64,000 nt of DNA from Pseudoflavonifractor sp. An44 (GTDB lineage: Bacteria; Bacillota; Clostridia; Oscillospirales; Oscillospiraceae): assembly GCF_002161675.1 (NCBI RefSeq), contig NZ_NFIH01000008.1, positions 1 through 64,000 on the forward strand. The letters are read 5' to 3'. A program made the position numbers and the translations under genes. Below are positions 36,639 through 63,065 of this stretch, one piece after another. The notes beneath the pieces are model-generated. The model was not told the DNA's origin. It worked only from the letters and a program-made list of their open reading frames with translations, and did no database searches. Each line of letters starts with the position of its first letter. The first letter of the stretch is position 1.

Positions 36639-36640
36639 CT

Positions 36641-45200: not shown

Positions 45201-45794
45201 GACAACGCCGCCCTGGACGACCGCTCCGGCAAGAAGGGCCCTGAGGCGGAGAGCGTCACCGTGGGCGTGGTGGACGGCAAGACCTACGCCTTTGTGGCTC
45301 TGGAGCGCACCGGCGGCGTGATGGTGTACGACGTCACCGCCCCCAGCGCCGTGACCTACGTCAACTATGTCAACTCCCGGGACTTCGGCTCCATCGTCCC
45401 CGGCTCTGAGGTGTACGAGGACGGAGAGCTGGACAAGTGGGTCACCGGCGGCGACGTGGCCCCCGAGGGCCTGGCCTTCCTCACCGCCCAGCAGAGCCCC
45501 ACGGGGCAGCCCATGCTGCTGGCCGCCTGTGAGGTGTCCGGCACCGTGGCGGTGTACGAGCTGACCGGGCAGGAGACGGAGCAGCCTACTCCCTCCCCGG
45601 AGGTCACACCTTCCCCCGAGGTGACCGCCACCCCCGCCCCGGAGACCTCCACCAATCCTGAGGCCACCCAGAAGCCGGAGACCGACGTGCCCCAGACCGG
45701 GGACACCGCCCAGCTGAGCCTGGTGCTGGGTGTTCTGGTTCTGTCCGCCGCCGGGCTGGCGGCTGTGGTGACGGTGCGTCGTCGGCGCAGCTAA
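42261..45794 (+). CDS. Secreted wall-anchored metallophosphoesterase with choice-of-anchor I domain
   Basis: A 1,177-residue surface protein with a signal peptide (residues 1-28), then a purple-acid-phosphatase-like Fn3 domain (about 35-130, VSGLEPGTSYEYRIS). A calcineurin-like phosphoesterase domain (about 140-460) carries the metal-ligand set SDPQ, SAGDQVED, VGNHDRH, VTHHKS and GGHDHVYSR. A choice-of-anchor I beta-propeller-like domain (about 590-1085) follows, then a Pro/Thr stalk and VPQTGD-TM-RRR (1137-1177). It probably releases phosphate from esters outside the cell. AAGGAGGA precedes the ATG at 42261. Its 3' end is duplicated in inverted form at 62699-62862. Confidence 0.9.
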   Translation: MKKRYTKLASVALSAALLTGMYPLALAAQETPNTALWGSTAGFDVDSLTIQPGETTASINLNWYAPDGTSAAQIALGDGRVVEATVSELTTPTKVDESKYTDTGKMVCKATVSGLEPGTSYEYRISNDGGQTWSQVYTYTTPQADNFTFAFTSDPQIKEDQSHNDDGWNSADGSNQTGWAKMMEVVGQAGATLMVSAGDQVEDQSWGKSSEYEAFFAPEEMTSIAYAPAVGNHDRHYMFADHFNLPNQMEVAQDGLLGSDTLLEQVKTTFRGQNSGTSQSHGNYIQATAEEIANQSNSNGVTPNADGQYDFTERREMETKGNYYYLYNNVLFVTLNTGAYPGGNDDLEGENGDNASVPSATRDNSEAEAMVENFRRTLTSATQEYAGQYNWLIVTHHKSTQTVAKHAADSDIENYVDAGFETLMDDFDVDFVLGGHDHVYSRSYVLKDGQRNAEALDTFYDPDGTIYLTGNCASDMQYYTPFQSVDKANNVDYPVLANGETGSQAYLEGNLPLGNQEWNQDYSPSYALFDVEGNTITVNVYNLSGDSEAPDSTPIDHFTVTKNTDGGAQTQGEENGDAQLDMTKIAGYTSGEFNVDGGVMEIISYNAATGWAYAVNGQSGLLTAIPLKTLEEKDTVDLLDGNDMDIKAMVEETDPTFAYGDMTSVAVSPDGSTLAAALQAAGYADAGRVALFTCNADGSLTLDKLVEVGVQPDMVTFADDHTVLSADEGEPRMGYSADAIDPKGSVSVVDVATGTAQVVTFDTFDAQRDQLTANHIILKQGSNPSTDLEPEYIAVSGGKAYVTLQEANAIAVLDLTTRTFTGIYSCGFEDYSVTPVDLDKGDEAYNPQTYENVLGIRMPDGIAAYEVDGVTYLVCANEGDSREWGDYLNENEAKKGAASPAGNIAEGKISGKVVYFGEESKTESAKGYDGLDSSKDYLFGGRSFTLYAVTENGIQEVFTSGDDFESLTARYFPDYFNTSNDNAALDDRSGKKGPEAESVTVGVVDGKTYAFVALERTGGVMVYDVTAPSAVTYVNYVNSRDFGSIVPGSEVYEDGELDKWVTGGDVAPEGLAFLTAQQSPTGQPMLLAACEVSGTVAVYELTGQETEQPTPSPEVTPSPEVTATPAPETSTNPEATQKPETDVPQTGDTAQLSLVLGVLVLSAAGLAAVVTVRRRRS

Positions 45795-45811
45795 GCCCCT
45801 GATAAAACAAG

Positions 45812-45850
45812 AAAGTACGGTCAGAGAAATCTGGCCGTACTTTTTTCTTT
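45812..45850. terminator. Terminator of the phosphoesterase gene, AAAGTACGG type
   Basis: Arms AAAGTACGGTCAG (45812-45824) and CTGGCCGTACTTT (45831-45843), then a T run. The same stem family recurs at 46637, 53283, 61971 and 62650. Confidence 0.9.
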
Positions 45851-45935
45851 ATAGGGAGCTTTCTCCAATTTCTCAGGCCAAACCCAGCGCCCCAGCCGGG
45901 GACGCTCCGCTGGGTCAAAGCTTCTGCTGTGCCCA

Positions 45936-45987
45936 ATGGCTCCCCTGTGTAAGGGGAGCTGTCTGCGAAGCAGACTGAGGGGTTGTC
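45936..45987 (+). repeat. GGCTCCCC...GGGGAGC intergenic hairpin repeat
   Basis: Palindrome GCTCCCCTGTGTAAGGGGAGC, then a stem GTCTGC-gaa-GCAGAC and TGAGGGGTTGT. Relatives, mostly in reverse, lie at 46571-46630 and 53217-53276. This motif type is frequent between genes in clostridial genomes. Confidence 0.65.
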
Positions 45988-46011
45988 GTCTAACCGCCCG
46001 TGGTTCAGGCT

Positions 46012-46534
46012 TGCCAGCCTGGTGGGGACGCTCCCCGCTGGGGGTTTCTTTTGAGCGGGCAAAAGAAACCAAAACCCGCTTAGGGCGTTCCCCCCTAAGG
46101 ACCTCCCTGGGGTACGAGGCTGGGAATGCGTCGAGTCTAGGTTCGGCCCGTGACCCTTGCTGTGGCTCCTGTTCCTGCCAGCACACCAGGATACCATGGC
46201 AGCTGGCCCTATAACTGGGCGGTTTCTATATCCGGGCCTACCCTGGAGAAGCGGCGTTCCCGCCGCCGGGAACCAGGCCGCCGAGCGCTGGAAACAGCAG
46301 CTCACCAGGGTAAGGCCCTGGTGAGAGAAGCATAGTTTTGCAGAGAAGCAGGTACATTCTGTAGCATTGCCGTGCTATCTATGTGACCCCACCAAGCCAA
46401 GGGCCGAGAAGAGAAGAACGCAGGGGCTCCCAGTACCGCGGGGTGGATTCCACAAGGCGGGGGAAGGCCCCGCCTTTGGCGATTCTTTCCCCGATTTCTC
46501 ATCGAGGAGAAATCGGGCCCAGCGGAGCGTCCCC
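46012..46534 (+). repeat. Dispersed about 510-bp intergenic repeat, copy C
   Basis: Left end GGGGACGCTCCCCGCTGGGG follows GGCTTGCCAGCCTGG at 46009 onward. The right end is the CCGATTTCTC hairpin and CCCAGCGGAGCGTCC near 46518-46532. It contains every internal block listed for copy B, in the same order, and no insertions. A second, stand-alone end sequence GGGACGCTCCGCTGGG lies at 45900-45914. It is flanked by terminators of two convergent surface genes. Confidence 0.88.
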
Positions 46535-46570
46535 GGAAGGGCGCTGGGTTCTACCCAGGAAATTGGAGCA

Positions 46571-46630
46571 GGACAATCCCTCCGACCCGGCTTGCGCCGT
46601 GCCACCTCCCTTTACACAAGGGAGGCTTTT
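46571..46630 (-). repeat. CCTCCCTTTACACAAGGGAGG-type hairpin repeat
   Basis: Hairpin CCTCCCTTTACACAAGGGAG plus a CGGCTTGCGCCG stem. It is the reverse counterpart of 45936-45987 and nearly the same as 53217-53276. Confidence 0.65.
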
Positions 46631-46636
46631 GAAGTA

Positions 46637-46672
46637 AAAAAGTACGGTCAGCCGAAGCTGACCGTACTTTTT
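46637..46672. terminator. Terminator of the GH20 gene, AAAGTACGG type
   Basis: Perfect 16-bp stem (46637-46652 with 46657-46672) with A5 and T5 ends, 14 bp beyond the GH20 stop codon. Confidence 0.93.
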
Positions 46673-46685
46673 GTAGTTCTAGAGC

Positions 46686-49600
46686 TTAGCGACGGGTCTG
46701 CTTGCGCACCACCACGGCAGTGCTCAGCAGCAGCACGGTGGAGGCCAGGATGGCCACATACACCAGCAGCATAGACTGGTCGCCAGTCTGAGGCACCTTC
46801 TCGGGCTTCTCGGTGGCCTGAGGCTTGTCGGTGGTCTCAGGCTTCTGGGAGGCCTCGGGCTTGTCGGTGGTCTCGGGAGCGCCACCGGCGGTGAGGCCGT
46901 TCATGGCGTCGCTGAGGGCAGCCACAGCAGCGTTCACGGTAGCCTGGTCGTCCTCGGTGAGGGTCTCGTCGGCCATGACAGCCTGAGCGTTCTGGAGAGC
47001 GGTGCGGAAGGCGGCCACGGACTCAGCGGTGTAGCCCTCCAGGTTGATGCCCTCGGCCTTGCCGATCAGGTCTTCCAGGATGGACTTGTCCGCCTTATAG
47101 CGCTGGGCCAGGATGGCGTTCAGCAGAGCGTCAGCGGCATCGTCCATCTCGCCCTGCATGGTGTCGCCAGCCTCGGCCAGGATCTTCTCGGCGTCGGCCA
47201 GAGCGTCCACCAGCAGCTGCCAGTTGTCGGAGACATACTTGTCTGCGTTGTCCATCATCTGGTTGGCGCGGTCCACCAGGAGCTGGAGAGCTTCGGGGTT
47301 GCCCTTGACCCAGTCCAGCATCCACACGGCGTTGAGCAGACGGTCGGTGACCTCGTCCACCTGAGCCTGGGTGTAGGCGGCAGGATCAGCCAGAATGGCC
47401 TCGGCGTCGGCCAGAGCCTGCTCATAGTAGGCCTTGGCGCTGTCGATGAGGTTGGAGTAGTCCTCCTTGACGGCCTTGTCATAGACAGCCTTCATCATGG
47501 TGGTGTCGGCGGGCTCGTTGGCGGTCCACTTGGCGTACAGGGTGATGTCGGCAGTGACAGCGGTGTCAAAGTCGTAGGCGGTGGTGCAGTTCTCGTCGGT
47601 GTACCAGCCGCCGAAGGTGTAGCCCTCCATCACGGGAGCCTCGGGCTGAGCCACGGTCTGGCCATCGGCCACCACCACGGCCTCCACAGCGGAGCCGCCC
47701 ATGGAGTTGAAGGTCACCTGGTGCTTGGCGGTGGGAGTCACGCCGTTGGCGTAGAACATCACGTCGTCCACCTGACCCACGAAGGAATTGGTCTCAGAGC
47801 CGATGCGGGCCACGGGAATGTTGAAGGAGGAGTAGGTGATGCCGGTCTTGCCCATGAACTGGGTGGTGGCGTTCTCGTCGGGGAGGAAGTAACCCACAGC
47901 GGCGATCTTCTCACCGTCCACCAGCAGGTAGGTCTTGTTGCCCTCGTTGGTGATGGTCAGCTCCACCCACTCATCGCAGGGCAGGTTGTAGTCGAACTCG
48001 TACTCGTACAGCTCACGGGCAAAGCCCAGCTTCCAGGTGCCGTCCTCGTTGGCAATGGCCTTCACGGTGGTCTCGCCGTAGGCGGCGTCGGCTTCCAGAA
48101 TGATCTGCTCGCCGGAGTTGGAGGTGCTGGCCTTAAACAGACGCAGGGACACGGTGTTCTTGGGGCCCATGACGTCCAGACCGGTGGAGGCGTAGGAGCT
48201 GTCCCCGGTGAGGGTCAGGGTGCCGTCGGTGAGGGAGGCACCGTTGAGGGTCAGGTCACGGTCGTTGCCGGAGCGGTCCTGGGTGTCGGTGAAGGAATAC
48301 TGAGCGTACTCCTGAGTGCCCTCGGCCAGGTCGATGGTGTGATAGGGGTTGGTGTTGGGGGCAGCGCCCAGGGTGGCCACGTCGGCCTTCAGGGTGGCGT
48401 AGTCACGGTCCAGGCCGTTGCCGCCGGTGCCCCACATCTTGGTGCCCAGGTAGGGCAGGGCGTCCACAAAGCGGGTGTACAGGTCGGTCTCGTTGATGCC
48501 GGCGGCACGGGTGTCAATGTTGTCGTTCCAGATGGCGTAGCAGGCGCCCAGCATCTGGGTGGAGCCGGTGGGGATCATGGTACCGCCCATGTTCTCGGGC
48601 TCCCAAGAGTTGTACAGGCTCTGGGAATTCAGCCAGTCGCCGTAGCCGCCCACGCTGCCGTTGCCGCTGGGCACCATGTACAGCTGGCCGTCGATGGTGT
48701 TGATGAGGTCGAAGCCCAGGTTGAACATATCCTGGGGTTTGGCCCAGCCGGTGTTCCAGATGTTCATCTGAGCGCCCTGGACGTGCTCGGGGCCGAACTT
48801 ATAGCCCTCGCCGCCGTTCATGGAGGACAGGCTGCCCCAGACCCGGACCTGACGATGCTTCACGTTCTCGATGTAGTCGATCATCTGGATGAGGAAGTTG
48901 CGGTAGGCGGGGTGGCTCTCATAGAACTCGTCGGCACCGATGTGCACGATGGTGTTCTCATCGAAGAGGTCCTCGTCGATGTACTCGTCGTAGATCTCCT
49001 TGATGATGTCAATGCCCTCCTGCTGCTTGATATCCACATGATCCACCCAGGGGTGGGCAGTGTCGATCTGGTGGAGCACCAGGTCGGGGCGATTCAGGGA
49101 GTACATAATGTAGTTGGTGATGGACAGAGCGTGGGCGGGCACGTCCAGCTCGGGGATAATATCCACGCCCAGGGCACGGGAGTAGTTCATGAACTCCTTG
49201 AACTCGGCCTTGGTGTAGTAGTAGTCCTTGGAGGTCAGGCCATCATCGGAGTACTCCAGGCGGTAGCCCTGGTAAGCCTGACGGATGCCATCCTCATCCT
49301 CGCCGGCCTTGTAGTAGTCCTCCATGAAGATGAGGTTGTCGCTCAGGTGCACATGGAAGCTGTTCATCTTGTACCAGGCCATGGTCTTGGAGATGGTCTT
49401 CAGAGTCTCCATGGAGGTGGGCTTACGGCCCACGTCCAGCATGAAGCCACGGTTCTCAAACTCGGGGTAGTCACAGGCGGTACCCTGGGCGATGGTCAGG
49501 TTACCGGACAGCTGCAGGGCCTGGAGCACAGAGCGGGTGCCCCAGTAGGCGCCGGTGGCGTCGTTGGCCTGGATGACCACCTGGTCGGTGACCACCATGT

Positions 49601-51584
49601 TGTAGGTCTCCTTGTCGAAGCCAGCCTGATCGTGGTACACCAGGCTGATGTCGCCGGCCTTGGGGGTGTCGTTGACGATGGGGAGGGTCAGGCCGAACAG
49701 GTCCTTCAGGTCGGCCTGGAGCTCCTTGGCCACGGAGGCGAAGGTGTCGTCGGCCACGATGCGGCTGTCGGCGGTGATGGCATAGGTCAGACCCTTCTGG
49801 TCGGCAGCGGAGTACCACTGGGCCAGCTCAGGCACCACGGCGGGCTTGGCGTTGCCCTCGTTGGCGGAGTTGACGCCGGGGATGTCCAGCTCCACAGTGG
49901 CAGAGCCACAGGTGGTGGTGTCGTTCTTGTCACGCACAGTGACGGAGATCTCCACGGTGGTATCCACCAGGGGGGTGTGGATGGCGCCGGAGGCATCCAC
50001 CACCTGCTCATAGTTGCAGCCCCAGGTGGCGGTGTACTTCTCGGGCACCTCGCCGGTCATGACCACCTTGCCGTCCTGAATCTGGATGCTCTGGGCCAGA
50101 GTCTCAGCGGTGTTGGCGGGGGTGACCACGATCTCAGACTCCTCCTGGTACACCTCAAACTCATACATAGCCACGTTGTTCCAGTAGGTGCTGCTGTACT
50201 TCTCCACCCAAACCCGGACATAGCGGGCCTCTACGGGGGCATCGAAGTTCACGGTCTGGATGGGAGCGCCGCTGGTCAGCTTGCCCTCAAAGGTCTTCTG
50301 GGTGGTCCACTGCTCACCGTCCATGGAGGTCTGCACATACCACTTGTCGGGGTTGTTGCTCTCCCAGTAGAGAATGACGCTGCCCACCATGTAGGTGTTG
50401 CCCAGGTTGTAGGTGATGGTGGGGTTCTTCACGCCGATGTCGGTGGCCCAACGGGAGCTCTTGGAGGTCTTGTCGCCGTCACGAGCCTTGTCAGCGGTGA
50501 AGGAGGTGCCGCTCTCCACGTTGGTGGCGGAGGCGATCACGCCGTTCTGACGAGCGATGTTGGTGCCCTCGGGGAGCTTCACCACATCGCTGCCAGCATC
50601 CTCGGGCATGTGGCCGTACACCTCAAACTCCCGCACACCCACGTTGTACCATTTGGACACAGCCTCGCCGTACTGGGTCACACGCAGACGCACATACTGA
50701 GCGGTGACAGCCTCAGCCAGTTGGTGCTCGGGCTCCAGAGTACCATCGGCAGACTCCACAAACACCTGCTGGGTCCAGTCGGTGCCGTTGGTGGAGGTCT
50801 CGATGTAGTAGGTCTGGATGTTGGTCTTTTCCCAGAACACCTTGAAGCCGGTGATGGTGCGCTCCTCGCCCAGGTTCAGCTGGAGCCAGCGCTCGGTGGT
50901 ACCCTTTCCATCGTTGTTGGTACCCCAGCGGGAGGCCTCATCATAGTTGCCATCGATGGTGGCGGAGGGGGGGAACTGGTCGGTCTCGGTGTCGGAGGCA
51001 GTGGCGGTGACGCCGCTCAGGCGGGCCAGGTTGCCGATGACGGGGACCACCTCATCGTTGCCGTACACCTCGAACTCACGCACGCCCACGTTCCACCAGT
51101 TGGACACGGACTGGCCGTACTTGGTGACGCTCAGACGCACATAGCGGGCCACCACAGCGTTCTCCAGCTGGTGCTCCACCTCACGGGCGGCAGCAGCGCC
51201 GGTGACCACCACCTGCTGGGTCCACTCAGAGCCATCGGTGGAGGTCTCAATGGTGTAGTCCTGGATGTTGGTCTTCTCCCAGAATACCTTAAAGCTGTCG
51301 ATGGAGTACCGGGCGCCCAGGTCCAGCTGGAGCCAGCGCTCGGTGGTGCCCTTGCCATCGTTGTTGGTTCCCCAGCGGGAGGTATCCTCATAGTTGCCGT
51401 CAATGGTGGCAGAGGGGGGGAACTTGTCGGTCTCGGTGTCGGAGGCAGTGGCTACCACGCCGTCCAGGCGGGCCAGATTCACATTGTCCGCCTTGGGCTG
51501 AGCTGCCGCCGATGCGGCCAGACCGCTGGTGAGCATCACAGCTGCCAACAGTGCGGCCAGTCCGCGCTTCAGGGACTTCTTCAT
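46686..51584 (-). CDS. Secreted wall-anchored GH20 beta-N-acetylhexosaminidase
   Basis: A 1,632-residue multi-domain surface enzyme: signal peptide (1-28); three F5/8 type C (CBM32-like) domains (about 35-175, 183-330, 340-490), the first two very similar; an Ig-like segment; a GH20b domain (about 600-715); the GH20 barrel (about 735-1085) with HIGADEF, Asp885-Glu886 as catalytic pair; a LamG-like domain; an InlB-type repeat (GGWYTDENC); two FIVAR-like helical units; and VPQTGD-TM-RKQTRR. It should cleave terminal GlcNAc/GalNAc, or lacto-N-biose, from host or milk glycans. ATG at 51584 with AGGAAGAGGTG upstream. Confidence 0.93.
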   Translation of the reverse strand: MKKSLKRGLAALLAAVMLTSGLAASAAAQPKADNVNLARLDGVVATASDTETDKFPPSATIDGNYEDTSRWGTNNDGKGTTERWLQLDLGARYSIDSFKVFWEKTNIQDYTIETSTDGSEWTQQVVVTGAAAAREVEHQLENAVVARYVRLSVTKYGQSVSNWWNVGVREFEVYGNDEVVPVIGNLARLSGVTATASDTETDQFPPSATIDGNYDEASRWGTNNDGKGTTERWLQLNLGEERTITGFKVFWEKTNIQTYYIETSTNGTDWTQQVFVESADGTLEPEHQLAEAVTAQYVRLRVTQYGEAVSKWYNVGVREFEVYGHMPEDAGSDVVKLPEGTNIARQNGVIASATNVESGTSFTADKARDGDKTSKSSRWATDIGVKNPTITYNLGNTYMVGSVILYWESNNPDKWYVQTSMDGEQWTTQKTFEGKLTSGAPIQTVNFDAPVEARYVRVWVEKYSSTYWNNVAMYEFEVYQEESEIVVTPANTAETLAQSIQIQDGKVVMTGEVPEKYTATWGCNYEQVVDASGAIHTPLVDTTVEISVTVRDKNDTTTCGSATVELDIPGVNSANEGNAKPAVVPELAQWYSAADQKGLTYAITADSRIVADDTFASVAKELQADLKDLFGLTLPIVNDTPKAGDISLVYHDQAGFDKETYNMVVTDQVVIQANDATGAYWGTRSVLQALQLSGNLTIAQGTACDYPEFENRGFMLDVGRKPTSMETLKTISKTMAWYKMNSFHVHLSDNLIFMEDYYKAGEDEDGIRQAYQGYRLEYSDDGLTSKDYYYTKAEFKEFMNYSRALGVDIIPELDVPAHALSITNYIMYSLNRPDLVLHQIDTAHPWVDHVDIKQQEGIDIIKEIYDEYIDEDLFDENTIVHIGADEFYESHPAYRNFLIQMIDYIENVKHRQVRVWGSLSSMNGGEGYKFGPEHVQGAQMNIWNTGWAKPQDMFNLGFDLINTIDGQLYMVPSGNGSVGGYGDWLNSQSLYNSWEPENMGGTMIPTGSTQMLGACYAIWNDNIDTRAAGINETDLYTRFVDALPYLGTKMWGTGGNGLDRDYATLKADVATLGAAPNTNPYHTIDLAEGTQEYAQYSFTDTQDRSGNDRDLTLNGASLTDGTLTLTGDSSYASTGLDVMGPKNTVSLRLFKASTSNSGEQIILEADAAYGETTVKAIANEDGTWKLGFARELYEYEFDYNLPCDEWVELTITNEGNKTYLLVDGEKIAAVGYFLPDENATTQFMGKTGITYSSFNIPVARIGSETNSFVGQVDDVMFYANGVTPTAKHQVTFNSMGGSAVEAVVVADGQTVAQPEAPVMEGYTFGGWYTDENCTTAYDFDTAVTADITLYAKWTANEPADTTMMKAVYDKAVKEDYSNLIDSAKAYYEQALADAEAILADPAAYTQAQVDEVTDRLLNAVWMLDWVKGNPEALQLLVDRANQMMDNADKYVSDNWQLLVDALADAEKILAEAGDTMQGEMDDAADALLNAILAQRYKADKSILEDLIGKAEGINLEGYTAESVAAFRTALQNAQAVMADETLTEDDQATVNAAVAALSDAMNGLTAGGAPETTDKPEASQKPETTDKPQATEKPEKVPQTGDQSMLLVYVAILASTVLLLSTAVVVRKQTRR

Positions 51585-51645
51585 ACGTTACACCTCTTCC
51601 TTCTTGTCTTCTCTTGTACTTAGGGCAAGCTTCGCCGGATGTGTT

Positions 51646-51801
51646 CCGCCCAAAAAAGAATAACCACACGCCCACTGCCTCAATCTGAAGGTCCCATCAC
51701 CCATTCCTCTCGTCCGAAGCAGTGACACATGTGGTTATGCCTGATTGAACAGTAACATCCCAATGGCCGACAGTTCCACCCCCAGTGGGGAAACCGTCGG
51801 C
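51646..51801 (-). promoter_or_regulatory. Structured 5' leader of the GH20 gene
   Basis: On the minus strand, one hairpin (51768-51801, CCGAC...GTCGG) is followed by a larger stem (51660-51739, ATAACCACA...TGTGGTTAT with an inner CACTGC/GCAGTG pairing) and then TTCTTTTTT, about 60 bp before the start codon. A stem plus T run inside a leader is the form of an attenuator or riboswitch expression platform. A possible promoter, TGGACA-17-TATCAT, lies upstream near 51825-51855. No known riboswitch class was recognised. Confidence 0.5.
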
Positions 51802-51991
51802 TGTGTGCCGAATCTATTGCCTTTATAGTAATGATAACAGACCAATTTTCACCTGTCCACAGACGGAACAGCCAAACCCATCGGGAAAATTCTATGCATT
51901 TTTCACAAGTTTTCCACCTGTGCGGTCTGCCTCGTTGCGGTGTTTCACACAATCCCCAGGGGCAAAATAGGCAATTTTTATTAAAAATAGG
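51802..51991. other. Gene-free stretch upstream of the GH20 leader
   Basis: No credible gene. AT-richer than the flanks; it must contain the GH20 promoter (minus strand). Nothing else recognised. Confidence 0.6.
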
Positions 51992-52030
51992 AACTGCTGA
52001 GAAGCGAAAGCCCGCTTCTCAGCAGTTTTT
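51992..52030. terminator. Terminator downstream of the truncated surface gene
   Basis: 15-bp stem (51992-52006 with 52013-52027) with A/T tracts on both sides. Confidence 0.9.
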
Positions 52031-52056
52031 GGAGCAAATTACTAACCTGCGGCCAA

Positions 52057-52530
52057 TTAGCGCTGACGGCGGCGATGCACCACAACGGCGCCCCCCAACA
52101 GGGCCAGAGAGGCGGCCAGAGTCACCACGTAGAGGGTGACGGTGGCGTCGTCGCCGGTCTGAGGCACGTTCTCAGGCTTTTGGGTGACCTGAGGCTTGTC
52201 GGTGACCTCGGGGGCGGGTGTGGGAGTCACCTGGGGCTGCTCGCCCTGGACGGTGAGGGTGGCGGTGCAGGTGACGCCGTTCTCCTGGTAGGTGACGGTG
52301 ACGGTGTCGCCGGCGGCCTCAAAGTCGGAGACGGTGGCCAGCGTGGTGACATCCCGGGAGTAGCCGGAGTCATAGGTGGCGGTGACGGTGAGGTCCAGCT
52401 TGCCGCCATCGGTGTAGGGGGCATTCTGCTGGACGGTGATGCCGGTGAGCTTGGACAGGGTCAGCTGATCGGCGGGCACGTCCACCCCGGCCACGGAGGC
52501 CACGCCGCTGGCCTGGGCACGTCTATCCAC
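52057..52530 (-). pseudogene. C-terminal fragment of a wall-anchored surface protein
   Basis: About 157 codons: one bacterial Ig-like domain (TLSKLTGITVQQ, DLTVTATYDSGYSRDVT, CTATLTVQG), a Pro/Thr stalk and a full sorting signal VPQTGD-TM-HRRRQR. It has no signal peptide, and a stop codon lies in frame about 24 bp upstream of the first GTG, followed by AT-rich sequence and then repeat copy D. The 5' part, with export signal and main domains, has been lost. It is probably not expressed as a functional surface protein. Confidence 0.75.
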
Positions 52531-52672
52531 ATCCGCACCAAATTTCAGTCACCCAATTTTGTACAAAGAGCACATATTTTCTTGGTCACAAATTCCTCGC
52601 GCTGTTATATTCATCCAATCTATAGTCTGTTCTTCTCTAATTTCTCAGGCATCGCCTTGTTCCCCTGGCGAG

Positions 52673-53180
52673 GGGAGACGCGCTCCGCTGGGGTCCATTT
52701 TGACTGGCCAAAATGGACGAAAAGCCACTTAGGGCGTTCCCCCCTAAGGACCTCCCTGGGGTACGAGGCTGGAACTGCGTCAAGCCTGGATTCGGCCCGT
52801 CACCCTTGCTGTGGCTCCTGTTCCTGCCACCACACCAGGCCCCCTGGGCAACTGGCCCTACAGCTGGGCGGTTTCCATGTCCGGGCCTACTTAAGGAAAA
52901 GCGGCGTTTCCGCCGCCGGGAGCCATACCGCCGATAGCTGGGAACAGCGGCTCACCAGGGTAAGGCCCTGGTGGTAGAAGTTTTACTTGCCGTAGAAGCT
53001 GACACTTACAAAAGAATTGCCATGCTATCTATGTGACCCCGACGGACCAAGGGCCGAAAAGAGGAGGACGCAGGGGCTCCCCGTACCGCGGGGTGGATTC
53101 CACAAGGCGGGGGAAGACCCCGCCTTTGGCGGTCTTTGGTGACTTTCTGGCGGCAGAAAGTCACCCCAGCGGAGCGTCCC
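52673..53180 (+). repeat. Dispersed about 510-bp intergenic repeat, copy D
   Basis: Left end GGAGACGCGCTCCGCTGGGG (52673-52692) with inner stem CCATTTTGACTGGCCAAAATGG. Right end GTGACTTTCTG-cgg-CAGAAAGTCAC then CCCAGCGGAGCGTCC to about 53179. All internal blocks are present and there is no insertion. The left flank (TTTCTCAGGC to CCCCTGGCGAGGGG) is shared with copy E. It lies between a truncated surface gene and the second phosphoesterase gene. Confidence 0.9.
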
Positions 53181-53216
53181 TGCCAGGCTGGCAAGCCAGA
53201 CCCGAGTCCTCGGAGA

Positions 53217-53276
53217 AAGTCAATCCCTCCGACCCGGCTTACGCCGGGCCACCTCCCTTTACACAAGGGAGGCTTT
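53217..53276 (-). repeat. CCTCCCTTTACACAAGGGAGG-type hairpin repeat
   Basis: Nearly the same as 46571-46630, with CCCGGCTTACGCCGGG as its second stem. It sits between repeat copy D and the terminator of the second phosphoesterase gene, the same arrangement as beside copy C. Confidence 0.7.
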
Positions 53277-53282
53277 TGATGC

Positions 53283-53318
53283 AAAAAAGTACGGCCAGAT
53301 TTCTCTGACCGTACTTTC
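53283..53318. terminator. Terminator of the second phosphoesterase gene, AAAGTACGG type
   Basis: Arms AAAGTACGGCCAG (53286-53298) and CTGACCGTACTTT (53305-53317), with A and T flanks. Confidence 0.9.
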
Positions 53319-53333
53319 TCACTTGTTTTGAAA

Positions 53334-55532: not shown

Positions 55533-55563
55533 ACTTTCTCTCCTTACTGACATTCTTACAACT

Positions 55564-56721
55564 TTATTGAGAAACCTGAGACAACTCAGGGGTTCTCCAC
55601 TTGGGATACACCGCCGCAGAGACCAGGGAGGCCAGGGGGACGGTGAGGATGACGGCACAGGTGCCGCACAGGCCGTGGGCCATCTCCAGGGCGATGTAGT
55701 CGGAGTGGAGCAGCTGCACGGGGTCGGTGCCGTAGGTCATCAGCACCAGCAGGGTGGTGAGGGAGCCGCCGGCAAAGGCAAAAATCAGGGTGTTGCTCAT
55801 GGTGCCGATCATGTCCCGGCCCATGCGCAGCCCGGCCCGCCACAGTCCACGCCCGGTGATGTCCGGGTCGGCCAGGCGCACCTCCCACAGAGCGGACAAC
55901 AGGGACACCGCCACGTCCATCACAGCGCCCAGGGAGGCGATCATGGTGGCGGCAAAGAGCACCGTGGAGATGTTCAGGCCCGTGTTCTGGGCGGCCACCA
56001 ACAGGTTTTCTGCATCGCTGCTCTTAAATCCGGACAGGTGGAGCAGCAGGGAAAAGAGGAGAAACAGCCCGCAGGACACAAACTCGCCTGCCAGCACCAC
56101 CCCGATGCCCAGCACCCCTCGGGGGGACAGGCCGTAGATGAGAAAGACGGTGACGGCCGTGGACACCAGCACCATGGCCAGCCCCGCCAGAATGGGGGAG
56201 CCGCCGGAGTAGATGACCGGCACGGTGATCTTCAGCAGGAACACCAGAGAGAAGGCCAGAGCCAGAGTGGCGTAAAAGCCCTTTTCCCCGCCCACCAGCA
56301 ACATCAACAGCAGGAAGATGGCCACCGCCACCCCCAGGCCCACGCTGCGGTCGTACTGGTAGAGGGTGTAGTAAGGCTCCACGTTTTCCGGGGCGTCCAC
56401 ACACACCACCACCCGCATCCCCTCACGGGCCAGGATGTTGTGGGTATTGGTGAGGTAGTTGGTGAGGGTGATCTGGGAGCCGTCCTTGAGCTCAATGGTG
56501 AGGGTCTGCTCCCCCAGCTGGGGGCCGCCCTTCAAATCGCTGGGGGTGAGGTCCTCCTCCACCACCTCCAGCACGGTGCCGGAGATATAGGAGACGGTGT
56601 CAGACACCAAGCTTTGAAAGGACACCGACACCGAGGGCATAACCGCCAGCACGGCGGTGACCAAACAAACGAAAATTGCCAGAATACGCTGCCCAAACCG
56701 GGGGTTGTGGATGATTTGCAT
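55564..56721 (-). CDS. YibE/F-family membrane protein
   Basis: A 385-residue polytopic membrane protein of the YibE/F family: N-terminal helix, an extracytoplasmic domain (about 40-120, with TVLEVVEEDLT and LTIELKDGSQ), then about seven helices including DVAVSLLSALWEVR and GTMSNTLIFAFAGG. Function is unknown; the family is suspected to act in transport. It is upstream of the phosphoesterase gene on the same strand with a 31-bp gap, so export or uptake linked to phosphate esters is possible (inference). Confidence 0.87.
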   Translation of the reverse strand: MQIIHNPRFGQRILAIFVCLVTAVLAVMPSVSVSFQSLVSDTVSYISGTVLEVVEEDLTPSDLKGGPQLGEQTLTIELKDGSQITLTNYLTNTHNILAREGMRVVVCVDAPENVEPYYTLYQYDRSVGLGVAVAIFLLLMLLVGGEKGFYATLALAFSLVFLLKITVPVIYSGGSPILAGLAMVLVSTAVTVFLIYGLSPRGVLGIGVVLAGEFVSCGLFLLFSLLLHLSGFKSSDAENLLVAAQNTGLNISTVLFAATMIASLGAVMDVAVSLLSALWEVRLADPDITGRGLWRAGLRMGRDMIGTMSNTLIFAFAGGSLTTLLVLMTYGTDPVQLLHSDYIALEMAHGLCGTCAVILTVPLASLVSAAVYPKWRTPELSQVSQ

Positions 56722-57080
56722 GGAGAAACTCCTTCCTTGTCTTCGCTGTACATCATCCTACTCGCCTGGAGGCGGCAAACGCTATCTTGCGTCGGTAAAA
56801 CCAATGTAAAGATCTTGCAAATTCAGAAAAATAGTTCCTAAATTCATTGATATAAATTGAAAAATCCAGGAATGACAGTTTTCACCACCAAAATCCAAAA
56901 ATTCGGGAATGGAACTGGGCAGAACCGCCAAGCCAGAGTTGGGGATTCTGACAATTTATACAAAAAACGAGTTCTATATATAAAGTGTATATACATCCCG
57001 CCCACAGGCGTGGTATCATGAGAGATAAGCACCCAGAGGCCGGGGTACGGCCTCGCGGAGAGAAGAGAAAGGATGATACC
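56722..57080. other. Divergent promoter region of YibE/F and the beta-helix gene
   Basis: 359 bp without a gene. It is AT-rich from about 56810 to 56990, with TATATA at 56975-56980 as a possible -10 toward the plus strand. A GAGGCCG-gggta-CGGCCTC hairpin lies in the leader of the beta-helix gene (about 57032-57050). No repeat copy is present. Confidence 0.6.
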
Positions 57081-60000
57081 ATGCTGAAAAAATCCTTGAG
57101 TCTGCTGCTGGCAGGCGCCCTGACGGTATCCCTGGCCGTTCCCGCTGTGGCGGGCAACTCCCAGGCCCAACCCAAACAGGACACCTCCTACGGCACCACC
57201 TACTATCTGGACGCCTCCATTGGCAAGACCGACGGGGACGGCCTGACCCCGGCCAATGCCTTTGACAGCCTGGAGGACATCAACGCCAAGACCTTCCAGC
57301 CCGGAGACCAGATTCTCATCAAGGCCGGTACCCAGTACACCGGCACCCTGTGGCCCAAGGGCTCCGGCTGCGAGGGCTACCCCATTGTCATCGACATGTA
57401 CGGCGAGGGGGACAAGCCCCTCATCGACGGCAACGGCGCCTACTTCATGCCCCAGGTCAAGGACTGGCAGGGTCCCTTCACCGGAGAGACCGGGGACCAG
57501 ATCGGCGCTGCGGTGTACCTGTACAACCAGGAGTACATCGAGATCAACAACCTGGAAGTAAAAAACCAGGGGGACAACGTCAACCGGGACCGCAGCGGCA
57601 TCCGGGTGGAGGGCTATGACTACGGGGTCATTGACCACATCTACATCCGCAACTGCTACGTCCACGACGTGCGGGGCTACAACGGTCAGGACGACATCTA
57701 CCCCGTAGTGCCCACCAACCCCGACGGAAGCCCCACCGACGGCTTTACCGACGAGGACCAGACCAACCCCAACACCACCAACACCTTCTGGGGCGCTCGT
57801 ACCACCCACCGCACCGGCGGCATCAACTTTGTCACCTACACCGCCCGACTGCCGGAGAGCAAAAACGAGTTCAACGTCCCCGTGCAGGAGCTGGACGAGA
57901 CCAAGCAGATCACCACCTTCAACGACATTCTCATTGAGAACAACACCGTGGAGAACTGCCAGGCCAACGGCATCACCACCACCAACGTCAAGGGCACCCT
58001 GGACGACGTGGCCTTCCGCCACACCAACGTGGTCATCCGGGGCAACGACATCCACAATGTCACCCGCTCCGGCATCATCCCCATCTACACCAACGGGGTG
58101 CTGGTGGAGTACAACAAGGTGGACACCTTCCAGAGCACCTACGAGGGCTATGGCTGCGGCATCTGGTGTGACCGGGCCAACGGCATGGTGTTCCAGTACA
58201 ACGAGGTGTGCAATGGCGTCAACGGCAACGACGGCATGGCCTTCAACCTGGACGACATGACCCGGGACGGCGTCATCCAGTACAACTACACCCACGACAA
58301 CTACGGCGGCGGCTACATGCTCCACGTCCGCCAGAACTCCTACAACCGCAACAACACCATCCGCTTCAACCTGTCGGTGAACGACAGCGGGGTGTTTACC
58401 GCCCACAACGCCCAGATCGTGGCGGTGGGCGAGACCTCTACCACCAAGCTGGAGAGCGCCAAGGTGTACAACAACACCTTCCTGTCCAACAAGGACTGCC
58501 ACGCCGTGTACCAGGGGGACGAGGTGGACTACACCAACAACATCTGGTACTTCACCAACTCCGCCGTGGCCAATCGCAAGGACTGCTTCTACCCCGGCGC
58601 CAACTCCTCCTTTGACAACAACGTGTACATCGGCTGTGTGGCCCCCACGGATGCCAACCAGCACACCGACGATCCCCAGTTTGTGGGCGGGTCCAACCTC
58701 TTTGGCCTGACCCGGGACCAGGCCCTGGTGAATGCCTCCCTCACCGCCAACTCCCCCTATGTGGGCGCTGGCGTGGCGGTGGAGAATAACGGCGGCCAGG
58801 ACATTCTGGGCGGCAGCCTGGACACCCTGAACCTGGGCGCCATCGCCGGAGCCGGCCACCAGGCCGCGGCCGTGTCCCAGACCTACACCCCCAACGAGGT
58901 CACCAAGTACCTCTCCGACGGCACCCAGCAGACCCAGGTCATCCACGAGACCGTGTCTGAGTCCAACACCAAGTGGGTCAACACCACCTTCAACTCCAAG
59001 AGCGTCATCTACACCAAGAAAGAGGGCAACTACCTGGAGTTTGACATGGTGGGCACTGGCGGCACCTTCACCCTCAAGCGGGGCGGCGGCGCCGGCAACG
59101 TGAAGCTGGTGGCGTACCAGGGCGGCCAGGAAGTGAAGTCCGTCACCGTGAACACCTACAACGCCACCGCCGACACCATCACCGTGGACGACTTCACCCA
59201 GCTGTCTGGGACCAACGAGGCCTACACCATCCGCGTCTACAACGCCGAGAACGGCAAGGCCGCCAACTTCGTCTCCTTCACCACCAACGTCTCCGAGACC
59301 ACCCAGCCCGGCTGCGACAACGACGCCATCGCCGGTGTGGTGTTGGAACAGCCCATGGCCCAGGTCATCCCCTACGGCAAGACCTCCGTGTCCGTGGACC
59401 TGGCCTCCCACGTGTATTTCCGCACCTGCCAGGCCCAGCAGCCCCAGGCCACTGTGACCTACACCGCCAACAACGGGGCCACCGTGGAGGGCAACACCGT
59501 CACCTTCCCCGCCCCCGGTGACTACACCGTCACCGCCCAGGCCACCTATAACGAGGTGACCGTCACCGACACCATCACCGTCTCCGTCACCCAGGGCCAA
59601 GAGCCCCAGGTGAACGTTCCCGCCGTGGACACCCGCGCCCTCACCGGGCTCATTGCCGCCTGCGAGGGTCTGGACCTGACCCAGTATGGCGAGGCCCGTC
59701 AGGACGTGTTCCAGCAGACCCTGGCCCAGGCCAAGGCCCTGCTGGAGGGCGAGGGCTACACCCAGGCCCAGGTGGACGAGATGGTGGCCCTGCTCACCAC
59801 CGCCAAGAACGGCCTGTCCCTCACCCGTGTCAACGCCGAGGACAGCGTGGTGGTGAAAAACGGCAACTGGGTGAACCTGTCCGACGCCACCCTGGACGGC
59901 GGCAAAGCGCTCAAGTGCTCCAACGCCAATGAGTCCATGACCGTGGACTTCTTCGGCAACCAGGTTCAGGTCTACGGCCGCAAGGCGGTGGGCGTGGCCA

Positions 60001-61958
60001 TCATGACCTTCACCGTCACCCGCCTGAGCGACAACGAAGTGGTGCACACCCAGACCGTGGACGGCTACAACGCTGAGAAGCTGGACCAGCAGGAGCTGTT
60101 TGCCTGGACCGGTGAGGCCAACGACCAGTACCGCCTGACCATCACCAACACCGGAACCGACAACGAGAACGCCAACAACAGCTACAACGTCATCATCGAC
60201 TTCCTCACCTTCGGCTGTGACCAGGCCCAGCTGGCCGACCTCACCGCCCTGGCCGCTGCCCTCACCAAGGCCGACGGCCTCAACAGCGCCGACTACACTC
60301 CCGAAGCCTGGCAGGCCGTGGAGGCCGCAGCCCTGGCCGGACGCCGGGTGTATGTGGACGCCACCGCCACCCAGGCCCAGGTGGACGCCGCTGCCGCCGC
60401 CCTCAACGAGGCCATGGCTCCGCAGCCCCAGGGGCCTGTGGAGACCTACGCCCTGCAATACGTGTACGACTATGCCGTCCAGCAGGACACCAGCAACCTG
60501 ATTCCCTCGGTGGCCGCCTTCTATCAGGAGGCCCTGACCGAGGCCCAGGCGGTGCTGGACGACCCCGACGCCACCCAGCTGGAGGTGGATGCCGCCTGCG
60601 GCAAGCTGATGCGGGCAGTGCACATGCTCAACTGGGTCCGCGGCGACAAGGCCATGCTGGAGCTGCTCATCATCCGGGCCGACCAGATGGTGGCGCACGC
60701 CGACCTGTACGTGACAGACAACTGGCAGCAGCTGCTGGACGCCCTGGACCAGGCCAAGAAGGTCTATAATGACGAGAACGCCATGGACAGCGACATCCAG
60801 CCCGTGGTGGACCAGCTGCTGGCCGCCATCCTGGCCCAGCGCTACAAAGCCAGCCGGGCCATTTTGGAGGACCTGGTGGCCAAGGCAGAGGGCATGGACC
60901 TGACCGGCTACACCGCCGAGTCTGTGGCCGCGTTCCGCACCGCTCTGGACCAGGCCAAGGCCGTGCTGGTGCAGGAGAGCAATCAGGCTGCCGTGGAGGC
61001 CGCGGTCACCGCTCTGAATGATGCCCTGGCCAACCTGAACCAGCAGACCGTGGACAAGGAGGCCCTGTCCGAGCTCTACACCTATGCCGGCCAGCAGGAC
61101 ACCAGCAACCTCATCCCCTCTGTGGCCGTCTTCTATCAGGAGGCCATGACCGAGGCTAAGGCCGTGCTGGACGACGCCACCGCCACCCAGCTGGAAGTGG
61201 ACGCCGCCTGCGGTAAGCTGATGCGCGCCGTGCTCAAGCTGGACTGGGTCAAGGGTGACAAGGCCATGCTGGAAGTGCTCATCGCCCGTGCCGAGGGCAT
61301 GGTGGAGAACGTGGACAAGTACGTATCGGACAACTGGCAGCAGCTGGTGGACGCCCTGGCCAAGGCCAAGGAGGTGTTCGCCGACGAGAACGCCATGGAT
61401 GTGGACATTGAGCCCGTGGTGGACCAGCTGCTGAACGCCATTCTGGCCCAGCGCTATAAGGCAGACAAGTCCGTCCTGGAGAACCTCCTGAACCAGGCCG
61501 AGGGCATGGACCTCACCGGCTACACCGCCGAGTCCGTGGCCGTGTTCCGCTCCGCTCTCCAGAGCGCCCAGGCTGTCATGGCCGACGAGACCCTCTCTGA
61601 GGAAGATCAGGCAACGGTGGACGCCGCTGTGGCTGCCCTCAACGACGCCATGGACGGCCTCACCGCCGATGGCGCTCCCGAGACCACGGACCAACCCGAG
61701 GCCTCCCAGACTCCTGAGGCTACTGACAAGCCTGAGACCACCCAGGCTCCCGAGGCTACCGACAAGCCCGAAGCTTCTCAGAGTCCTGAGGCCACCAACC
61801 AGCCTCAGACCACCGCCAAGCCCCAGGCCACCCAGAAGCCTGAGAGCGTGCCTCAGACCGGCGATTCGTCTCAGCTGCTGGTGTGCGTGGCCGCCCTGGC
61901 CTCTGCGGTGCTGCTGCTGAGCACTGCCGTGGTGGTGCGCAAGCAGACCCGTCGCTAA
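57081..61958 (+). CDS. Secreted wall-anchored right-handed beta-helix protein
   Basis: 1,625 residues: signal peptide (about 1-25), a right-handed parallel beta-helix (about 35-590; repeated short strands such as YIEINNLEVKNQ, ILIENNTVENCQANGI, VVIRGNDIHNVTRSGI and VYNNTFLSN, as in pectate-lyase-like polysaccharide enzymes), a beta-rich segment, an Ig-like domain, a CBM-like domain (about 910-1050), and helical FIVAR-like units including two long tandem copies (QQDTSNLIPSVA...). A Pro/Thr stalk and VPQTGD-TM-RKQTRR end it. Probably a polysaccharide lyase or glycosidase; no catalytic residues can be assigned. ATG at 57081 with GAAAGGATG. Confidence 0.88.
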   Translation: MLKKSLSLLLAGALTVSLAVPAVAGNSQAQPKQDTSYGTTYYLDASIGKTDGDGLTPANAFDSLEDINAKTFQPGDQILIKAGTQYTGTLWPKGSGCEGYPIVIDMYGEGDKPLIDGNGAYFMPQVKDWQGPFTGETGDQIGAAVYLYNQEYIEINNLEVKNQGDNVNRDRSGIRVEGYDYGVIDHIYIRNCYVHDVRGYNGQDDIYPVVPTNPDGSPTDGFTDEDQTNPNTTNTFWGARTTHRTGGINFVTYTARLPESKNEFNVPVQELDETKQITTFNDILIENNTVENCQANGITTTNVKGTLDDVAFRHTNVVIRGNDIHNVTRSGIIPIYTNGVLVEYNKVDTFQSTYEGYGCGIWCDRANGMVFQYNEVCNGVNGNDGMAFNLDDMTRDGVIQYNYTHDNYGGGYMLHVRQNSYNRNNTIRFNLSVNDSGVFTAHNAQIVAVGETSTTKLESAKVYNNTFLSNKDCHAVYQGDEVDYTNNIWYFTNSAVANRKDCFYPGANSSFDNNVYIGCVAPTDANQHTDDPQFVGGSNLFGLTRDQALVNASLTANSPYVGAGVAVENNGGQDILGGSLDTLNLGAIAGAGHQAAAVSQTYTPNEVTKYLSDGTQQTQVIHETVSESNTKWVNTTFNSKSVIYTKKEGNYLEFDMVGTGGTFTLKRGGGAGNVKLVAYQGGQEVKSVTVNTYNATADTITVDDFTQLSGTNEAYTIRVYNAENGKAANFVSFTTNVSETTQPGCDNDAIAGVVLEQPMAQVIPYGKTSVSVDLASHVYFRTCQAQQPQATVTYTANNGATVEGNTVTFPAPGDYTVTAQATYNEVTVTDTITVSVTQGQEPQVNVPAVDTRALTGLIAACEGLDLTQYGEARQDVFQQTLAQAKALLEGEGYTQAQVDEMVALLTTAKNGLSLTRVNAEDSVVVKNGNWVNLSDATLDGGKALKCSNANESMTVDFFGNQVQVYGRKAVGVAIMTFTVTRLSDNEVVHTQTVDGYNAEKLDQQELFAWTGEANDQYRLTITNTGTDNENANNSYNVIIDFLTFGCDQAQLADLTALAAALTKADGLNSADYTPEAWQAVEAAALAGRRVYVDATATQAQVDAAAAALNEAMAPQPQGPVETYALQYVYDYAVQQDTSNLIPSVAAFYQEALTEAQAVLDDPDATQLEVDAACGKLMRAVHMLNWVRGDKAMLELLIIRADQMVAHADLYVTDNWQQLLDALDQAKKVYNDENAMDSDIQPVVDQLLAAILAQRYKASRAILEDLVAKAEGMDLTGYTAESVAAFRTALDQAKAVLVQESNQAAVEAAVTALNDALANLNQQTVDKEALSELYTYAGQQDTSNLIPSVAVFYQEAMTEAKAVLDDATATQLEVDAACGKLMRAVLKLDWVKGDKAMLEVLIARAEGMVENVDKYVSDNWQQLVDALAKAKEVFADENAMDVDIEPVVDQLLNAILAQRYKADKSVLENLLNQAEGMDLTGYTAESVAVFRSALQSAQAVMADETLSEEDQATVDAAVAALNDAMDGLTADGAPETTDQPEASQTPEATDKPETTQAPEATDKPEASQSPEATNQPQTTAKPQATQKPESVPQTGDSSQLLVCVAALASAVLLLSTAVVVRKQTRR

Positions 61959-61970
61959 ACTCCAAATCAT

Positions 61971-62008
61971 AAAAAAGTACGGTCAGCAAATGCTGGCCGT
62001 ACTTTTTT
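61971..62008. terminator. Terminator of the beta-helix gene, AAAGTACGG type
   Basis: 17-bp stem with one G-T pair (61971-61987 with 61992-62008), A6 and T6 ends. Confidence 0.93.
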
Positions 62009-62078
62009 GCTGTTTTCGAACTTAGACAGAACGTGTTCCCTTCTCCGATTTTCCCGGCGGAAACCAGCGTCCTTCCAG

Positions 62079-62592
62079 GGACGCTCCGCTTATGCCCCAT
62101 TTCTCCCCGATGAGAAATGGGGGAAAGAATCGCCAAAGGCGGGGCCTTCCCCCGCCTTGTGGAATCCACCCCGCGGTACTGAGTGGAAGGTGCAGTGTTC
62201 TGTGTTCGGCCCTTGGAGTGGTTCATGTCACATAGATGGCGTGGACATGCTACAGAAAGTACCTGTTCCTCTGTGTAGTTGTACTTCTACCGCCAGGGCC
62301 TTACCCAGGTGTGCAACTGTTCCCAGTTGCCGGGGGCCTGGCTTTCGGCGGCGGGAACGCCGCTTCTCCGGGGGAGGCCCGGAGGTGGAAACCGCCTGGT
62401 TGTAGGGCCAGCTGCCAGGTTAGCCTGGTGTGCTGGCAGTGGCAGGAGCCACAGCAAGGGTGACGGGCCGACCATAGACTTGACGCAGTTCCAGCCTCGT
62501 ACACCAGGGAGGTCCTTAGGGGGGAACGCCCTAAGTGGGGCTTTTCGTCCATTTTGGCCAGTCAAAATGGACCCCAGCGGAGCGCGTCTCCC
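62079..62592 (-). repeat. Dispersed about 510-bp intergenic repeat, copy E
   Basis: Minus-strand orientation, opposite to copies B, C and D. Left end GGGACGCTCCGCTTATG (degenerate) at 62078 onward with the CCATTTCTC/GAGAAATGG hairpin. Right end CCATTTTGGCCAGTCAAAATGG then CCCCAGCGGAGCGCGTCTCC to about 62592. No insertion. It lies beside the 3' end of the beta-helix gene, mirroring copy C beside GH20. Confidence 0.9.
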
Positions 62593-62649
62593 CTCGCCAG
62601 GGGAACGAGGTGAAGCCTGAGAAATTGGAGAAAGCTCCCTATAAAGAAG

Positions 62650-62681
62650 AAAGTACGGCCAGATTTCTCTGACCGTACTTT
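62650..62681. terminator. AAAGTACGG terminator of the truncated phosphoesterase fragment
   Basis: Arms AAAGTACGGCCAG (62650-62662) and CTGACCGTACTTT (62669-62681), matching 45812-45843 in inverse. Confidence 0.88.
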
Positions 62682-62698
62682 CTTGTTTTATCAGGGGC

Positions 62699-62862
62699 TT
62701 AGCTGCGCCGCTTACGCAGGTTCACCACAGCCGCCAGCCCGGCGGCGGACAGAACCAGAACACCCAGCACCAGGCTCAGCTGGGCGGCGTCCCCGGTCTG
62801 GGGCACGTCAGTCTCAGGCTTCTGGGTGGCCTCGGGATTGGTGGAGGTCTCCGGGGCGGGGG
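62699..62862 (-). pseudogene. Fragment of a phosphoesterase 3' end
   Basis: On the minus strand, 54 codons read APETSTNPEATQKPETDVPQ, TGD, a hydrophobic helix and LRKRRS, then TAA (62699-62701). This is almost identical to the end of the 42261-45794 protein. It has no start codon or upstream domains. Upstream, at about 62855-62862, homology stops in GCGGGGG and the sequence becomes the end of a repeat element. A dead gene end. Confidence 0.88.
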
Positions 62863-62949
62863 AAGGCCCCGCCTTTGGTGGGTCTTTGGTGACTTTCTGC
62901 CCACCCAGAAAGTCACCCCAGCTTCAGCGCGTCTCCCCTCGCCAGGGGA
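62855..62949 (+). repeat. Partial copy (F) of the 510-bp repeat, right end only
   Basis: GGAAGGCCCCGCC, GGTCTTTGGTGACTTTCTG with its inverse, CCCCAGC and a GTCTCCCCTCGCCAGGGG flank match the right end of copies B and D. The remaining 400 bp or so is absent, replaced by the phosphoesterase fragment. Confidence 0.75.
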
Positions 62950-63065
62950 ATTGCCCAGGTGAAACGTTCCGCCTTTACAACTCGGAAACAACTTCTTGCT
63001 GACTTGTCCAAAGCCCTGTGATAAGATGAAGGTACCATAAGCATGATGGGGAGAGGAGAAACACC

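Follow-up and report, generated by a model that had tools for sequence, protein, structure and literature searches.

Inversion of a surface-gene block beside mutS in Pseudoflavonifractor, at a site with a dispersed repeat and exchangeable gene tails

Three kinds of described system come closest to the locus considered here, a block of surface genes between long mirror-image arms in Pseudoflavonifractor sp. An44 (contig NZ_NFIH01000008.1, positions 1 to 64,000; this whole stretch of 64,000 nucleotides is called the window). Invertons (PMC11892184) have inverted repeats of 10-40 nt; the likeness lies in inverted repeats placed around surface-related genes, in a relative from the Oscillospiraceae. 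The present arms differ in exceeding 1 kb, in having no promoter-like site and in the lack of an invertase among the genes scanned, and there was no sign of both states within one species, the genomes compared being one per species. Chromosomal inversions mediated by repeats (PMC2327257) share with this locus the inverted homologous arms, the absence of any site-specific recombinase seen and a block that is flipped between relatives. Here, however, the arms are built from a clade-specific, quasi-palindromic repeat together with paralogous sortase tails, and that they caused the inversion is what we infer. The REPIN/REP sequences with their RAYT transposases (PMC3116915) are likewise dispersed, intergenic and hairpin-rich, and a RAYT-like remnant is present in the window, but the element described here is ~550 bp long and the remnant is flanked by other repeats of ~85 bp.

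An earlier reading of the DNA, the original prediction, had described the block as a candidate invertible segment that might flip by general homologous recombination, which could also exchange the C-terminal parts of surface proteins. The arms and the inversion are both real, the inversion is of an evolutionary kind, and the site has been shaped by the dispersed repeat and by exchangeable gene tails. The explanation that we consider moderately probable is that the dispersed repeat mediated an inversion that became fixed and was then retained, the locus being a rearrangement hot spot of ordinary repeats and not a phase switch.

The inverted block and its arms

The features of the locus, in window positions, are as follows.

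39352-42111, + strand: mutS (NCBIfam PRK05399/mutS1), the left reference gene for orientation
42198-45794, + strand: PE1, a purple-acid-phosphatase-like phosphoesterase with a choice-of-anchor I domain and a sortase tail (Pfam, NCBIfam), outside the flipped block
45631-46770, no strand: left arm, with the PE1 3' end, hairpin, repeat, hairpin and GH20 3' end; homology continues to ~47486
46005-46582, + strand: dispersed repeat copy of the left arm (self-comparison, genome search)
46686-51584, - strand: GH20, with F5/8 type C, GH20, List_Bact and two FIVAR domains and a sortase tail (Pfam)
52057-52530, - strand: C-terminal fragment of a surface protein, 157 amino acids, with an LPXTG-type tail (weak NCBIfam matches, translation)
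52631-53200, + strand: third dispersed repeat copy, within the block (self-comparison, genome search)
53334-55658, - strand: PE2, a phosphoesterase with FIVAR repeats and a mosaic sortase tail (Pfam, tail identities)
55564-56721, - strand: YibE/F-like membrane protein (Pfam PF07907)
56985-61958, + strand: beta-helix protein with four FIVAR domains and a sortase tail (Pfam)
61880-62862, no strand: right arm, with the beta-helix 3' end, hairpin, repeat, hairpin and orphan PE1 3' end; homology continues inward to ~61075
62039-62591, - strand: dispersed repeat copy of the right arm, inverted relative to the left-arm copy (self-comparison, genome search)
62699-62862, - strand: orphan PE1 3' end, 53 codons and a stop, 95% identical to that of PE1 itself (alignment, translation)
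62855-62922, + strand: truncated end of another copy of the repeat, fused to the orphan at CCCCCGCC (88% identical to 53106-53170)
63066-63725, + strand: response regulator (Pfam), the right reference gene for orientation, which follows GH20 in G010, G018, G020 and G024

Self-comparison of the window and direct alignment placed the arms at 45631-47486 (left) and 60462-62862 (right), where they had been predicted, and confirmed that they carry the same modules in mirror order. From the outside inwards each arm consists of a PE1-type 3' end (45631-45794 on the left, the orphan at 62862-62699 on the right), a AAAGTACGG hairpin (45812-45843 and 62650-62681), a copy of the dispersed repeat (46005-46582 and 62039-62591, mutually inverted), an inner AAAGTACGG hairpin (46639-46670 and 61974-62005) and the 3' end of a sortase-anchored gene, GH20 on the left and the beta-helix gene on the right. 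The GH20 and beta-helix genes were indeed found to lie inside the block and to end in the arms, and the translations of both terminate in VLLLSTAVVVRKQTRR. The window has five AAAGTACGG...CCGTACTTT hairpins, one behind each of PE1, GH20, PE2, the beta-helix gene and the orphan PE1 end.

The homology of the arms extends over ~1.8 kb at 62-95% identity and is far above chance (BLAST E 1e-112 and 0.0). In blocks of 150 columns the identity from the outer to the inner end was 95, 89, 74, 89, 77, 85, 68, 85, 90, 89, 71, 70 and 62%, where the 74% block comprised 54 aligned columns and the 90% block 60 columns, and the longest exact blocks measured 66, 62, 61 and 51 bp. A third arm-like copy (52631-53921) is situated between the arms in direct orientation to the left one, to which it is 79% identical over 1270 bp, about as similar as the right arm.

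Gene order was checked in six of the 41 other genomes of the genus (G001, G006, G010, G018, G020 and G024), picked by similarity of MutS, YibE/F or the beta-helix protein. The left reference, mutS, gave a single match per genome in all 42 genomes of the genus at E 1e-200. GH20 was on the mutS strand in five relatives (G001, G010, G018, G020 and G024) and on the opposite strand in the window and G006. The whole block could be followed in G020 alone, where the stretch matching window positions 47526-60416 is collinear and reversed between mutS and the response regulator gene; the flanks in this genome (contig C3) are the same as those of the window (mutS, 39339-42106; response regulator, 62975-66067, in window positions). 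In G010 the order was mutS (+), beta-helix (-), GH20 (+) and regulator (+), PE2 and YibE/F not being there, so that two genes of the block could be oriented. GH20 was oriented between the same flanks in G018 and G024 (mutS +, GH20 +, regulator +), and in G001 (mutS +, GH20 +) the regulator is on a different contig. G006 has the block orientation of the window.

The block has thus been inverted in evolution relative to these relatives. Because the window and G006 share the flipped state and the five others have the opposite one, the simplest reading is a single inversion, in an ancestor common to G006 and the window's species; by MutS identity G006 is also the closest of the six (97%, the other five 88-92%). 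This part of the predicted invertible segment stands. That the segment is invertible at present does not follow, as the two flipped genomes agree with each other and the five others agree among themselves.

PE1 adjoins mutS in the window and G006 only, among the seven genomes compared, and its relatives in G019, G061 and G012 are on contigs other than that of mutS. In a more distant Oscillospiraceae record (L080, 2921-8532), YibE/F (66%), PE2 and a PE1 relative stand in a row on one strand, unlike the window, where PE1 is on the strand opposite to PE2 and YibE/F. Of 47 named loci, L080 was used together with L078 and L079, the latter two probably the records of G006 and G020 again. The L080 arrangement fits a flip, in a record without mutS or the regulator, and may give a view of the PE1 site before PE1 moved beside mutS. 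In G006 there was a second break at the same right boundary (C7:1-1030 and C8:46561-48092), where the beta-helix gene now adjoins a lipoprotein gene and the regulator adjoins the former neighbour of that gene; the lipoprotein gene and this neighbour are adjacent in the window's genome, G020, G010, G024 and G001.

Origin of the inversion and exchange of tails

According to the favoured explanation, the block of GH20, PE2, YibE/F and the beta-helix gene, lying between mutS and the response regulator gene, would have been inverted once in the lineage leading to both the window's species and G006, and kept since. The event would have been RecA-type recombination in which inverted copies of a common 3' module paired, the module being made up of a sortase-anchor tail, a AAAGTACGG terminator and the dispersed repeat and placed behind the outward-facing ends of the block. 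These modules would in addition exchange sequence by gene conversion and duplication, by which the tail of PE2 would have been partly overwritten and the PE1 3' end duplicated at the right boundary.

PMC2327257 gives ~30 bp as the minimal homology for recombination and, for phage lambda by the RecABCD route, inversion frequencies of 3e-4 between identical and 3e-6 between 22%-diverged inverted genes, that is, ~100-fold rarer. The identity of the arms and their exact blocks permit RecA-type recombination on this scale, possible but slow. General homologous recombination, the mechanism originally proposed, is possible at a low rate; that the repeats were its substrate is suggested by their position. 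Both boundary gaps of the block hold a repeat copy, as do six of the 33 gene gaps in 27-84 kb, and the chance that two gaps drawn at random would each contain a copy is P 0.03 (0.05 when gaps shorter than 30 bp are left aside).

Evidence for exchange came from the tails. GH20, PE2 and the beta-helix gene have related tails of FIVAR domains and a sortase signal in the window and in G006. In G020 and G010 the match to the counterparts stops at the tail, with a FIVAR-like tail on another nearby gene in G010, and GH20 of G018 and G024 has other linkers at its end. Between the window and G006 the tails were 91% (GH20), 87% (beta-helix), 94% (PE1) and 77% (PE2) identical. In columns 721-840 the PE2 tail of the window was 96% identical to the window's own GH20 tail (116 columns) and 73% identical to PE2 of G006, while in columns 481-600 it was the beta-helix tail that the G006 PE2 tail resembled most (85%). 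The PE2 tail is a mosaic, and its pattern, read from these alignments, is that of gene conversion with different donors. The predicted swapping of C-terminal parts was accordingly borne out as exchange involving the PE2 tail, and was not seen between the two outer tails since the species split. The lone fragment with an LPXTG tail at 52057-52530 (-), between GH20 and PE2 and without a gene body, is another sign of tail shuffling.

The orphan PE1 end, 53 codons without a gene body, was 95.1% identical to PE1 of the window and 89.2% identical to PE1 of G006 (223 columns each); the two PE1 genes were 93.7% identical to each other (367 columns). Since the orphan is nearer to PE1 of the window, it was probably copied after the window and G006 split. 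The eight bases CCCCCGCC at its junction with the truncated repeat are present in PE1 too.

Several observations weigh against the explanation given above, 1) the P values of 0.03-0.05 for repeats at both boundaries are weak and suggestive only, 2) a repeat match at either of the boundaries was found in none of the five uninverted relatives, and for this reason the repeats might postdate the inversion, 3) G006 has half of the left-arm repeat and none at the right boundary, so that inverted copies at both breakpoints are a property of the window and what the ancestral arms looked like can no longer be seen, 4) the orientation was taken from six relatives within the genus that are different species, 5) for the E. 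coli chromosome, PMC2327257 cites recombination that is 1000-fold lower once divergence reaches 4% and 6) the outer tails, of GH20 and the beta-helix gene, had no excess of identity to each other over that to their orthologues, except in one short end block (76% vs 79 and 71%), so that in the outer tails the inverted arms give no sign of having exchanged sequence with each other since the species split.

An alternative that we regard as rather unlikely is that the block was inverted by another route, such as illegitimate end joining or a mobile element that has since vanished, and that the repeats entered the boundary gaps later, gathering behind gene ends as they do elsewhere. All 37 extracted repeat copies lie between predicted genes, and of the 35 that have called genes to either side, 15 are flanked by convergent ones; the five uninverted relatives have no repeat at either boundary, nor has either junction of the second break in G006, and the 8-bp microhomology CCCCCGCC at the orphan junction is as in illegitimate joining. 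Random insertion, on the other hand, would not be expected to leave inverted copies at both boundaries of the window with paralogous tails adjoining them in the same mirror order. That the mirror order is an artefact of assembly is very improbable. The assembly consists of 51 contigs, and copies of the repeat or of a tail stand at the ends of several, but the arms differ enough from each other to be assembled, the left junction and the block orientation recur in the separately assembled G006, and the gene of the right flank follows GH20 in four relatives, the right junction of the window itself being without a second witness.

Also improbable, if less so, is an actively invertible, phase-variable segment that flips by homologous recombination in the living population and perhaps swaps protein tails as it does. 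Arms ~1.8 kb long that include exact blocks of 61-66 bp and the presence of the opposite state in a relative are compatible with it, as is switching within a species, given that the relatives are different species; surface genes, moreover, are typical neighbours of invertible DNA (PMC11892184). The rate, however, would be strongly lowered by an identity of 62-90% over most of the arm (PMC2327257), the flipped and the unflipped genomes are each consistent among themselves, the outer tails have not exchanged sequence with each other since the split, and at least 23 inverted pairs of repeat copies lie within 40 kb in this genome.

The arrangement of the genes also bears on this question. GH20, PE2 and YibE/F point leftwards and the beta-helix gene rightwards, all start inside the block and end at or before the arms, and what the arms contain is 3' ends and terminator hairpins. 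No promoter-like site fell in the arms in a consensus scan, which gave five sites in 45600-63100 as a whole where 3.0 were expected from shuffling. Because the genes start inside the block and the arms contain only 3' ends and terminators, either orientation should, judging by this layout, leave promoters and reading frames whole, and flipping should be silent; exchange of tails by a crossover in the arms is possible in principle. In agreement with the original prediction, no recombinase was detected by Pfam among the five genes inside the block, and none, nor any invertase, in the six genes of the island (PE1, GH20, the fragment, PE2, YibE/F and the beta-helix gene) and their near neighbours, the remaining window genes and the rest of the genome not having been searched. 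The scan used 16 different queries (Pfam, NCBIfam), some of them antisense or spurious frames. A dedicated switch was rejected, considering the lack of a recombinase among the scanned genes and of a promoter-like site in the arms and the occurrence of the repeat throughout the genome.

The fixed, repeat-mediated inversion thus remains the favoured account. The locus is a placed case of a surface-gene block inverted in two sister species and not in five others, with sortase-anchor tails exchanged. No switch is needed for mirror-image arms to arise around surface genes, as a dispersed repeat can produce them, and caution is in order when invertons are called from a single genome.

The dispersed repeat and neighbouring observations

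What had been noted as a 510-bp repeat proved to be a dispersed element, present in the window's genome in at least 38 copies that are each 400 bp or longer. The left-arm copy used as query gave 63 matches from the 40 scored among 88 candidates, 37 of which were at least 400 bp, and an interrupted copy at 4.4-5.1 kb brought the number to 38. The contig has at least eight copies and the window five. Copies on shared contigs formed at least 32 inverted and at least 32 direct pairs. Because the repeat is present genome-wide with many inverted pairs, arms of this kind are expected in many places and are not the signature of a switch.

In the genus any match was obtained in 11 of the 42 genomes and stretches of more than 250 bp in seven (G000, G006, G018, G020, G024, G010 and G001); at most 14 matches were scored per genome, so the copy numbers are lower bounds. 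In the family, matches at E 1e-20 came from three of 400 sampled genomes, each a member of this genus. Between mreC and mutS the repeat is present in full, partial or differently built versions in the window, G006, G020 and G018 and is absent from G010 and G001. Spread on phages or plasmids is unlikely, no match having been obtained there (an exact 38-base pattern in viral contigs; blastn), and literature searches found no paper describing this repeat.

The 37 extracted copies had a mean pairwise identity of 79%. The structure was analysed in an alignment of 33 of them, inserts or odd ends having led to the exclusion of four (L015, L167 and those of the window at 38.8 and 4.4 kb). Five local hairpins had standard pairs in 97.7% of cells, and 118 cells were changed on both sides, a number reached by none of 500 shuffles, with slid controls giving at most 19. 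Further pair types (23) were not above the shuffles, 265 of 500 reaching 23. Most of the double changes came from the two end hairpins, and since the stems of these differ as blocks between copies, the count measures the exchange of cassettes and single compensations alike. Changes on both sides were present in 23 of the 100 pairs of the alignment fold; the long-range fold of the whole element was obtained from the consensus sequence alone.

In three copies (L169, L171 and L172) the 5' end is the reverse complement of the usual 3' hairpin, and in three others (L026, L029 and L170) the left inner part, by eye, resembles the reverse complement of the right inner part. The ends are inverted, GGGGACGCTCC..GCTGGG and CCCAGCGGAGCGTCCCC. 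No clean target-site duplication was seen at the mreC-mutS site or at the 26.6 kb site, where a given gap holds unlike modular elements from one species to another. A coding function is unlikely from the reading frames, the longest stop-free stretches having medians of 69-94 codons per frame in ~548 bp, with single copies reaching 182. A known RNA family is also unlikely; Rfam gave no match at the gathering score in the five window copies, and at three loci with copies the matches were below it (best E 0.057).

Tentatively, and with rather more doubt than confidence, the repeat is viewed as an undescribed, quasi-palindromic and apparently non-coding family of ~550 bp restricted to a single subclade of one genus. 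The end hairpins would be exchanged as cassettes that preserve pairing, and the reverse complements of the inner parts would take the place of these parts, the element itself flipping and converting, and this activity would drive the inversion and tail exchange of neighbouring surface genes. As a repeat that swaps hairpins, it may represent a new family of elements. REPINs are shorter than ~550 bp.

Other repeats were found in the window. A Y1 (RAYT-like) transposase remnant with an in-frame stop is located at 24287-24529 (-) and is the only RAYT-like match in the genome. Near it are REP-like repeats of ~85 bp (24156-24249 and 26645-26729), with one more inside the dispersed repeat at 4720-4815; the repeats that flank the remnant are of this kind, and the dispersed repeat does not flank it. 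The repeat copy before mutS contains an insert of ~160 bp (38766-38930) that is like a miniature inverted-repeat transposable element. G006 has a 228-bp stretch matching this insert with 99.6% identity, and because that stretch is in a repeat copy at a different place, the insert is probably mobile and recent.

Elsewhere in the window, an AAA/OLD-type ATPase and a partner of 173 amino acids at 35589-37156 (+) match the PADLOC candidate defence system HEC-02 (E 4e-142 and 6e-84). This putative defence pair occupies a 1.65-kb stretch between a U32 peptidase gene and the gene before mreC and is absent there in G006, G020, G010, G018 and G001. A tandem array with a period of ~117 bp, its copies 93-97% identical, extends over positions 1-668, and a fluoride riboswitch (RF01734, 43.7 bits) is located at 11075-11147 (-).

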